Shown in pieces: positions 59,215 through 60,752 of a stretch of DNA of 64,000 nt. Each line of letters starts with the position of its first letter. Within the stretch, counting starts at the first letter, position 1. The DNA is from Natrinema salifodinae (GTDB taxonomy: Archaea; Halobacteriota; Halobacteria; Halobacteriales; Natrialbaceae). The notes beneath the pieces were generated by a model that had not been told where the DNA came from, did no database searches, and was given only the letters and a program-made list of their open reading frames with translations. Made by a program: the position numbers and the translations under genes. The stretch covers positions 372,001 through 436,000 of the forward strand of contig NZ_FOIS01000001.1 of NCBI RefSeq assembly GCF_900110455.1, given 5' to 3'.

Positions 59215-59226
59215 GGGGGGGGGGGG
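59215..59226. repeat. G12 homopolymer
   Basis: Twelve consecutive G lie 76 bp before the GTG start of the winged-helix gene, upstream of its TATA-like element. Long homopolymers are unstable and could alter promoter spacing. Confidence 0.85.
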
Positions 59227-59238
59227 TGCGGCGAGCGT

Positions 59239-59258
59239 GTTTTCTCACCCAGAAAAAC
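59239..59258. promoter_or_regulatory. Inverted repeat (TTTTCT-CACCC-AGAAAA) upstream of winged-helix pair
   Basis: The core 59240-59256 has 6-bp perfect arms. Its reverse complement GTTTTTCTGGGTGAGAAAAC is nearly the same as the inverted repeat at 60262-60280. Confidence 0.55.
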
Positions 59259-59266
59259 CGGACTGC

Positions 59267-59275
59267 TTTTCATAG
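59267..59275 (+). promoter_or_regulatory. TATA-type element of the winged-helix gene
   Basis: TTTTCATAG ends 26 nt before the GTG at 59302, consistent with a leaderless transcript. Confidence 0.5.
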
Positions 59276-59301
59276 CGATACCGGAACGAACGGTTATACC
59301 A

Positions 59302-59649
59302 GTGAGTGAGGACACCAACTTGTCGACCCTGCTTGCGGTCCTCGACGACGAGTACGCACGGGATATCCTCACCCACACGAGCGTCGAACCCATGTCTGCT
59401 AGTACACTGAGCGAACGGTGTGACGCGTCCCTCCCGACGATCTATCGACGGCTCGACCGGCTCGAGGAGTGTAACCTCGTCACCGAAGAGACCGAACTCG
59501 CACCCGACGGCAACCACTACAGCGTTTACAGTGCGAACCTCGATCGGCTGGAACTATCGCTCAACGAGGGCTCGTTCACACTCGAACTGACGTACCGTGA
59601 GGAAGACGTCGCCGACAAGTTCACCCGCATGTGGGAGGGCATGCGATGA
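59302..59649 (+). CDS. Winged-helix (ArsR-like) regulator
   Basis: This 115-residue protein starts at GTG. LLAVLDDEYARDILTHTSVEPMSASTLSERC and SLPTIYRRLDRLEECNLVTEETELAPDG form a winged helix, followed by a beta-hairpin and an amphipathic end. It overlaps the membrane protein gene by 4 bp, a pairing common in Halobacteria in which the DNA-binding protein and a small membrane protein are co-made. It is the likely user of the inverted repeat upstream. Confidence 0.82.
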   Translation: MSEDTNLSTLLAVLDDEYARDILTHTSVEPMSASTLSERCDASLPTIYRRLDRLEECNLVTEETELAPDGNHYSVYSANLDRLELSLNEGSFTLELTYREEDVADKFTRMWEGMR

Positions 59650-59957
59650 CCCGGAGCGTCGTCCGAGTCGACGAAGCGACGCTGTTCGAACTGCTGACCG
59701 TCGCGAGCCTCTTTCTCGTCGCACTCTTCGGGACGATCATCGCCTACCAGGCCTACCGGGGTTACCGGCGCAACGACGCGACTTCGATGCTCTATCTCGC
59801 TGTCGGCCTCCTTTTGCTGACGCTGTTCCCGTTCCTGCTCAACGTCATCGTGACGACGCTGGTGAGCCCTGAGCGGATTGTCATCGCGCTGCTGGAGAAT
59901 ATCAGCCGCCTGGTCGGCCTGGTCGCAATCACCTACTCTCTGTACGGACAGCACTGA
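59646..59957 (+). CDS. Small membrane protein (DUF7521-like)
   Basis: This 103-residue protein has three membrane helices (LLTVASLFLVALFGTIIAYQA, MLYLAVGLLLLTLFPFLLNV, IALLENISRLVGLVAITYSLYG). The ATG lies in the ATGA overlap with the winged-helix gene. A sensor or anti-regulator role is possible from the pairing but not shown by the sequence. Confidence 0.78.
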   Translation: MTRSVVRVDEATLFELLTVASLFLVALFGTIIAYQAYRGYRRNDATSMLYLAVGLLLLTLFPFLLNVIVTTLVSPERIVIALLENISRLVGLVAITYSLYGQH

Positions 59958-60356
59958 AAACGATCGTCTCCCGTCCATGGTCGGTTCCGGTCTGGTTTAG
60001 CTCGGTAACTCGTTCTCGGTCGATACGAGCGGGAGGGCCGAAGCGGTGCGCGGTACAAGCCGCGTGCGCAGCGATTCCCGTCAGCGGCGGGAGGTGGGTC
60101 GATCGACGCGGAACGGCTCCGTCGAGGGGATCGCGGGGCCGGAGTGGTAGCGTCGCGACCCTGGGATGATCGGATGCGGGGGACCAACGAGGCGTGCGGG
60201 GCTGGCGTACCTCGTCCCCCGTGCGTTCTTTTCCGCGTGTTCGTATTAGTATTGGAAGCGCGTTTTCTGGGTTGGAAAACACTGTGCCGAGTCGTTCGGT
60301 TTCGCGTCCATCGTCGGTCCCACAGGTTCTTTGGGATCGCCGTCGAGAGGCCCGCT
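59958..60356. other. Intergenic region before UspA gene
   Basis: This 399 bp gap holds the inverted repeat at 60262-60280 and AT-rich sequence near 60240-60300 that may be the UspA promoter. No other feature is supported. Confidence 0.5.
60262..60280. promoter_or_regulatory. Inverted repeat GTTTTC-N7-GAAAAC before UspA gene
   Basis: GTTTTCTGGGTTGGAAAAC lies about 77 bp upstream of the UspA start. It shares TTTTCTGGGT and GAAAAC with the element at 59239-59258. Confidence 0.55.
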
Positions 60357-60752
60357 ATGCACTATTTGGTCGGGACCGATTCGATCCACACGACGGCCTC
60401 GATCTGCGATTATCTCGGCGAGCGAGCGACCGCCACCGATGCCGTGACCGTCGTCGCCGTCGCGCCGAGCGACGATCCGACGGCCCGCCGAGACGCCGAG
60501 GAAGCGCTAACCGTCGCCCCCGTTCGCCTGGCGACGGTCGGCGACGTCGAGACCGAGTTGCGGGAGGGCGAGGGATCGCCGGCGGACGTCCTCCGCGCCG
60601 CCGCGGCGGACAGCGACGCTGACGAGTTCGTGATCGGCTCCCGCGGCGGCGATCCCGACGCCGCTGCGACGCGGGACCTCGGCTCGACCGCGCGGGAACT
60701 GCTGGCAGCCGCCGACCGGCCGGTGGTCGTCGTTCCGGGTCCCGAATTCTAA
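60357..60752 (+). CDS. Universal stress protein A-family protein
   Basis: This 131-residue single-domain protein has YLVGTDSIHTTASICDYL at the N-terminus and the nucleotide-binding C-terminal motif VIGSRGG ... GSTARELLAAADRPVVVVPG (G-2x-G-9x-G-S type). Many UspA proteins bind ATP and act in stress adaptation. It is a single gene. Confidence 0.85.
   Translation: MHYLVGTDSIHTTASICDYLGERATATDAVTVVAVAPSDDPTARRDAEEALTVAPVRLATVGDVETELREGEGSPADVLRAAAADSDADEFVIGSRGGDPDAAATRDLGSTARELLAAADRPVVVVPGPEF

Follow-up and report, generated by a model that had tools for sequence, protein, structure and literature searches.

Conserved operator-like repeats around a winged-helix regulator gene of Natrinema salifodinae and a predicted small-RNA link to rosR

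Introduction

In Haloferax volcanii, OxsR, a single-domain TrmB-family regulator whose redox-active dimer-interface cysteine is C24, is described in the accessible text as activating transcription where its site lies upstream of the BRE/TATA elements and repressing it where the site lies downstream; the word sRNA is absent from the main text of that paper (PMC9426492). Accessible parts of other papers describe archaeal small RNAs that are tied to transcriptional regulators. NrpR of Methanosarcina mazei, a nitrogen repressor, has a palindromic operator (GGTA-N6-TACC) in the promoter of the sRNA154 gene (PMC3177094). In H. volcanii, RosR controls hvo_1211s, an intergenic RNA convergent to a gene (PMC13286277). 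In M. mazei, the constitutively transcribed sRNA162 pairs through a single-stranded stretch over the translation start of the mRNA of an ArsR-type regulator, a target with both a leader and a ribosome binding site (PMC3510493).

We analyzed a stretch of 64,000 nt from Natrinema salifodinae (contig NZ_FOIS01000001.1, positions 372,001 to 436,000; hereafter the window), where two near-identical inverted repeats, site 1 and site 2, had been noticed. The original prediction was that a winged-helix protein encoded next to site 1 binds both repeats and controls its own gene as well as a UspA gene. The locus resembles the OxsR system in its small single winged-helix protein, its semi-palindromic site upstream of a BRE/TATA element and its conserved cysteine (PMC9426492), but the OxsR motif is CG-rich whereas the Natrinema motif is AT-armed, and the Natrinema regulator falls below the Pfam TrmB gathering score (21.0 bits versus 25.6). 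As with NrpR and sRNA154, a palindromic operator would sit in the promoter of a small RNA gene; as with RosR and hvo_1211s, a haloarchaeal regulator would control an intergenic RNA convergent to a gene, except that RosR is the controlling protein there and the rosR mRNA is the predicted target here. The predicted pairing over the translation start of a regulator mRNA recalls sRNA162, but differs from it in that the RNA would be under regulation and the target leaderless. Our favored reading, to which we assign a probability of about 0.7, is that the repeats are operators of the winged-helix regulator, serving its own operon, a minus-strand RNA (RNA1) and a second RNA encoded elsewhere (RNA2), and that RNA2 blocks translation of rosR.

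Results

The repeats are rare in the genome and conserved among relatives

The minus strand at 59239-59258 reads GTTTTTCTGGGTGAGAAAAC and the plus strand at 60262-60280 reads GTTTTCTGGGTTGGAAAAC, in agreement with the original prediction, and the segments 59237-59256 and 60263-60282 are inverted copies that match over 20 nt with 90% identity (Table 1). Both repeats had also been said to precede start codons; this holds for site 1, which lies 45 nt before the GTG at 59302, and only loosely for site 2, from which the usp ATG at 60357 is 77 nt away.

Table 1. Features of the locus, in window coordinates.
Feature	Position	Strand	Remark
Site 1 operator TTTTCTGGGTGAGAAAA	59240..59256	-	Ends 10 nt before the operon's TATA box
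Predicted TATA box TTTTCATA, winged-helix operon	59267..59274	+	TTTTSATA aligned across relatives
Winged-helix regulator (HTH_20 / ArsR-like fold), 115 aa	59302..59649	+	Candidate operator binder
DUF7521 small hydrophobic protein	59646..59957	+	Pfam DUF7521, 60.3 bits
Conserved element CGCUUCGGCCC	60035..60045	-	Distal RNA1 or plus-strand 3' UTR
RNA1, predicted structured RNA	60096..60220	-	Predicted 5' end 60220; covariance model match G000:C1:432096-432220 (own sequence in model)
Predicted RNA1 TATA box ACTAATAC	60243..60250	-	12 nt after site 2, 22 nt before RNA1
Site 2 operator TTTTCTGGGTTGGAAAA	60263..60279	+	Promoter position for minus-strand RNA1
UspA-like gene	60357..60752	+	Pfam Usp, 39.4 bits; originally proposed target

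The genome-wide search suggested along with the prediction found the motif to be rare. The exact 17-mer TTTTCTGGGTNNGAAAA occurs at two places in the 4.27-Mb genome, sites 1 and 2 alone, and TTTTCYNNNNNRGAAAA, which comprises the arms and flanking Y/R bases (TTTTCY-N5-RGAAAA), occurs at three places against none in the reversed control; all three have a promoter assignment. The looser TTTTCN7GAAAA gave three places versus two in the reversed control, and with one mismatch allowed the genome held 12 operator matches versus 7 in the control, which is near noise, so that only the exact sites are informative in this genome. Within the window, arms with at most one mismatch gave three matches against 0.26 expected, a number reached in 1 of 100 shuffles.

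Among 199 related genomes, 46 contained the exact 17-mer, the reversed control being 0 in every row. The 29 Natrinema genomes held 69 TTTTCYNNNNNRGAAAA sites against 0 in the reversed control; read by their coordinates, 49 are site 1 or site 2, 4 lie before RNA2/nreA, 3 lie before sppA and 13 are unexplained. To follow each repeat, we chose 59 genomes that contain a close orthologue of the winged-helix gene and compared a single locus per genome (30 + 29 loci). Allowing one arm mismatch at most, we found site 1 60 to 62 nt before the start codon in 54 of the 59 genomes (offsets -62, -61 and -60 in 28, 3 and 23 loci, respectively), and site 2 was present in 56, its best match being sought over a 760-nt span, in which the single-mismatch cases L115, L117 and L118 may be chance. 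Judged by sequence, both repeats are conserved operators.

Two further observations concern operators and their surroundings. In L024, L025 and L063 (genomes G010, G027 and G013, respectively), an exact operator lies 43-44 nt before the start of a gene that, reading the sequence by eye, we take to encode an SppA-like signal peptide peptidase, with a geometry equal to that of the other promoters. In N. salifodinae itself, a 12-G run at 59215-59226, 13 nt upstream of site 1, was not seen in the aligned relatives.

Site 1 and the regulator operon

The promoter at site 1 reads operator, 10 nt, TTTTCATA, 27 nt, GTG, which fits a winged-helix gene that is probably leaderless, with the operator just upstream of its BRE/TATA element. 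The encoded regulator scores above the Pfam HTH_20 (PF12840) cut-off (38.7 bits versus 27) and below that of NCBIfam HTH_metalloreg (26.3 bits versus 55). Its structural model (pLDDT 84) has the helix and strand order of a winged helix, and Foldseek matched it best to the Pyrococcus furiosus heat shock regulator 2p4w and then to ArsR-type proteins. The protein is 90-95% identical in the 28 other genomes of the genus, and Cys40 is invariant in 27 homologues. The DUF7521 start overlaps the regulator stop by 4 nt, an overlap found in all 59 loci; our literature search, within the texts that it covered, found no publication on DUF7521. The neighborhood order is alpha/beta hydrolase, winged-helix gene, DUF7521, a 399-nt gap, Usp, a glyoxalase-family gene and a Na+/H+ antiporter family gene. 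In Natronorubrum bangense (L149) and Natribaculum breve (L166) the winged-helix locus lies on a plasmid record.

Outside Natrialbaceae, the palindrome is kept at -57 to -59 in 7 of 11 scanned homologues (Haloarchaeobius, Halobellus, Halorubrum, Halopenitus), and no second site was found in these 11. In Halorubrum and Halopenitus the outer operator bases are changed to GCTTC..GAAGC, and the recognition-helix region of the regulator changes in parallel with the operator bases. A different regulator might bind the sites, the winged-helix gene being only one of its targets, and several similar proteins are indeed encoded, with 4-10 matches per Natrinema genome. We consider this improbable: site 1 stays with the gene in Haloarchaeobius, Halobellus and Halorubrum, operator and recognition helix change together, and the exact 17-mer was found in no genome of the other families within the order among the 199. 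The winged-helix protein, put forward originally as the natural binder, is still the best candidate, since site 1 stays at -57 to -62 across several haloarchaeal families, and autoregulation of its gene is plausible.

Site 2 is placed for a predicted minus-strand transcript

On the minus strand, the order after site 2 is 12 nt, ACTAATAC, 22 nt and GGGGGACGAG. Counting the G-run on this strand at a fixed offset from site 2, we found GGG exactly 42 nt after the site in 45 of 56 loci; the length between operator and G-run is fixed and the intervening sequence variable. This arrangement bears on the proposal that site 2 is a uspA operator, through which the winged-helix protein would control UspA in addition to itself. 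The usp gene is the plus-strand neighbor in most relatives, its start lying 60-152 nt from site 2 (sd 21) in 37 of the 59 loci, and the AT-rich box next to site 2 might be used in both directions. By contrast with the fixed RNA1 spacing, however, the distance to usp varies. By tblastn, usp is absent from 20 of the 59 loci; site 2 is perfect in 12 of them, and the G-run start is retained in 10 of the 12. The usp gene also has a conserved promoter-like element of its own, CAGG.TT.TT.G, whose distance to the usp start is constant (70% consensus of 37 loci). We rejected UspA as the main target on these grounds, and the part of the original prediction that had site 2 controlling UspA is not supported. 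Usp is probably not the main target of site 2, although a side effect on it may occur; the uspA operator reading as a whole is unlikely, if somewhat less so than a different regulator. We continue with the reading in which site 2 serves the promoter of minus-strand RNA1.

RNA1 is a conserved structured element

The predicted fold of RNA1 begins with a 5' hairpin and continues through a C-rich linker to a long two-part stem. In a plain alignment of 24 sequences, 88.8% of the cells pair, against 40.8-51.3% when the structure is slid, and covariation is 0.147 versus 0.104 in shuffled alignments, a value attained in 0 of 500 shuffles; double-change pairs (7 versus 5.1, attained in 71 of 500 shuffles) were not exceptional. 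In a model-fitted alignment of 33 sequences (32 distinct), which leans to the structure, double-sided changes were seen in 26 of 35 pairs, one pair occurring as UA, GC, CG, AU, GU and UG, and covariation was 0.268 versus 0.113 shuffled, none of 500 shuffles attaining any of the measures.

The covariance model, built from 24 Natrinema loci so that most genus-level matches are by construction, had matches with E values up to 1 in 37 of the 119 genomes. It matched 27 of the 29 Natrinema genomes, with no match in G003 and G023. Outside Natrinema, it found RNA1 at the same locus in G049, G050, G039 and G053 (E 2e-4 to 4.5e-3), and weak matches occurred in G051, G004 (a second match), G079, G088, G038 and G097 (E 0.02-0.83). 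A match in G063 (E 8.6e-6) has no operator in the fetched stretch and looks protein-coding; we treated it as chance. Rfam gave no hit at gathering in the window and, at lax E-values, nothing on RNA1, RNA2 or a further candidate, RNA3, described below. A coding role for RNA1 was rejected, as a start-codon column is common to at most 18 of the 24 aligned sequences and the lengths fall into all three classes modulo 3.

Between DUF7521 and the long stem, amid variable sequence, 45 of the 59 loci carry GCTTCGGCC (also GCUUCGGCC). TTTT within 130 nt after this conserved 11-mer was present in only 15 loci, and we do not claim a T-run terminator. Another view of the region is that the conserved structure is the plus-strand 3' UTR or terminator of the regulator-DUF7521 mRNA, in which case site 2 would be incidental or act on the plus strand. 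A hairpin can form from both strands, and the region is directly downstream of DUF7521. Yet the operator-TATA-G-run spacing is fixed on the minus strand despite the variable sequence between, and the same arrangement upstream of nreA sits between other genes. In addition, G-U cells outnumber A-C cells on the minus strand (44 versus 23, p=0.007), a modest excess that favors this strand for RNA1. The 3' UTR view is, if anything, slightly less probable than binding by a different regulator, and we keep RNA1 as a candidate minus-strand RNA.

As to what RNA1 may do, its presumed function is not indicated by a target in Natrinema: we found no recurrent start-codon target for the complement of its 12-nt linker, and the complement of the distal 11-mer, GGGCCGAAGCG, was not enriched (11 versus 11 in the control). 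The Natrinema RNA1 is without the rosR-complementary tail described below.

A third operator precedes the predicted RNA2 upstream of nreA

The third exact operator, at G000:C1:484360, is 48 kb outside the window and precedes nreA, whose Haloferax orthologue is described in the accessible text as a DNA repair gene (PMC7776575). Of 30 loci, 27 could be read, and all of these but G039 have an nreA-upstream operator with at most one mismatch (26 of 27), against 2-4 mismatches in the reversed control; it is exact in G008 and G015, and G025 has the RNA2 tail together with the exact 17-mer. We tried nreA as a plain third target and rejected it, as the alignment placed a hairpin RNA where the RNA is predicted to start and gave nreA a TATA-like element of its own.

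The layout is operator, 12 nt, TATA, 22 nt, the hairpin GAGGUUCGGU...ACCGAACCUC and a near-invariant tail, UGCCUCUGACAU, so that the RNA2 start has the same operator offset as that of RNA1. In all these promoters, the distance from the operator end to the transcript or coding start is about 42-45 nt. Covariation in the RNA2 hairpin is weak (0.208 versus 0.171, attained in 13 of 500 shuffles). RNA2 could instead be the 5' leader of nreA; we infer from the sequence arrangement that the third operator drives RNA2 as a member of the winged-helix regulon.

The third copy also weighs on the notion that the repeats are the terminal inverted repeats of a small mobile cassette made up of the regulator and DUF7521 genes. 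Inverted copies with a 20-nt match about 1 kb apart would suit such a cassette, but the same gene pair and sites recur across the genomes of one family, no transposase gene lies between the repeats, and the copy at nreA comes without the cassette. We regard this notion as very improbable, far more so than any other alternative considered here, and retain the interpretation of the repeats as operators.

In two genomes of two other genera, G029 (G029:C1, about 1982854-1983759) and G033 (G033:C1, about 3510192-3511121), nreA lies beside the winged-helix gene in divergent orientation, an adjacency that suggests an old link to DNA repair.

The RNA2 tail is complementary to the start of rosR

The RNA2 tail is complementary to AUG UCA GAG GCA, the leaderless start of rosR, and in the N. 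salifodinae genome the match extends to 14 nt. Across the 29 Natrinema genomes, DTGTCAGAGGCA had 103 matches versus 31 in the control (summed); among those read, the matches that recurred lie in RNA2, in RNA3 and at the start of one protein gene. The protein is a RosR orthologue, as shown by its matches to the solved structures of hsRosR and its halophilic relative (PDB 6qfd, 6ez1; E 1.7e-44 and 5e-45). In 28 of the 29 genomes (19 + 9) rosR starts with ATGTCAGAGGCA, and TTAAATA lies upstream at the leaderless position.

In the 29th genome, G016, rosR has ATGTCAGAGGCT and RNA2 has AGCCTCTGACAT: both sides are changed and pairing is restored, the rosR change being a silent one in codon 4. The rosR change was looked for after the RNA side alone had been seen, and we estimate the coincidence by chance at roughly 1 in 29 times 1 in 3. 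RNA2 shows the features expected of a base-pairing sRNA, namely a conserved unpaired seed, a conserved mRNA site and a compensatory change, the last being a single event. The sequence case for rosR as the target of this sister RNA is strong. Covariation of the tail with the start-codon base (CAU, CAC and CAA tails versus AUG, GUG and UUG) was tried and rejected, since Natrinema genomes with a CAC tail keep ATG in rosR.

In some members of the family, the hairpin of the site 2 RNA itself ends with the rosR tail, with at most one mismatch, as in eight loci (L042, L043, L105, L108, L110, L112, L116 and L168); genera of the family in which the site 2 RNA has this tail include Natribaculum and Halostagnicola. 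RNA1 and RNA2 would then be paralogues that have diverged, their target specificity having been re-aimed in Natrinema.

The same tail occurs in other contexts. RNA3, a candidate in L277 (G000:C3 near 544860), consists of the hairpin GUGUUCACUCUGGUGGGUGAACAC, followed by UACGUGCCUCUGACAU, which is the same rosR-complementary tail, and a GC-rich hairpin. It is highly conserved, with homologues in L246, L252, L255, L260, L265, L266, L272, L280, L289, L291 and L294, and lacks the operator studied here, having instead a conserved CCTAA-N5-TTTARCCC-like stretch upstream. In L264 (G010) and L281 (G011), a gene that we take, by eye, to encode a transporter of the OFA/MFS type also begins with ATGTCAGAGGCA behind an AT-rich box; in some species the RNA tail may also target this transporter gene.

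Discussion

According to our favored reading, a signal, possibly acting via DUF7521 or the invariant Cys40, would lead the regulator to activate its own operon and the RNAs. Site 1 would act from just upstream of the BRE/TATA element of the leaderless regulator-DUF7521 operon; site 2 would be placed likewise with respect to the TATA box of minus-strand RNA1, between DUF7521 and usp; and the third operator would drive RNA2, the related small RNA upstream of nreA. Activation is proposed with moderate confidence because the operator lies upstream of BRE/TATA, the position from which OxsR activates. RNA2 would then pair with the leaderless AUG UCA GAG GCA of the rosR mRNA and block ribosome loading, and hence translation.

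Taken further, these elements may form a stress circuit of Natrialbaceae, in which the regulator activates itself and sister RNAs from promoters of identical geometry, the RNAs cover the leaderless rosR start, and RNA1 and RNA2 are diverged paralogues re-aimed in Natrinema. We see the chances of this wider proposal as evenly balanced. Within the texts that they covered, literature searches on RosR and sRNA found no sRNA that pairs with the rosR mRNA start, and those on Natrinema small RNAs and leaderless sRNA seeds found no report of the circuit.

Many haloarchaeal mRNAs are leaderless, which raises the question of how small RNAs could control their translation. RNA2 and rosR would provide a genetically testable case, combining an exact match of a conserved seed to the leaderless mRNA start of a major oxidative-stress regulator, a compensatory change in one genome, and RNA genes that are apparently wired to one transcription factor. 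The analysis would also give the uncharacterized regulator-DUF7521 pair a defined operator, promoter geometry and regulon across an archaeal family.
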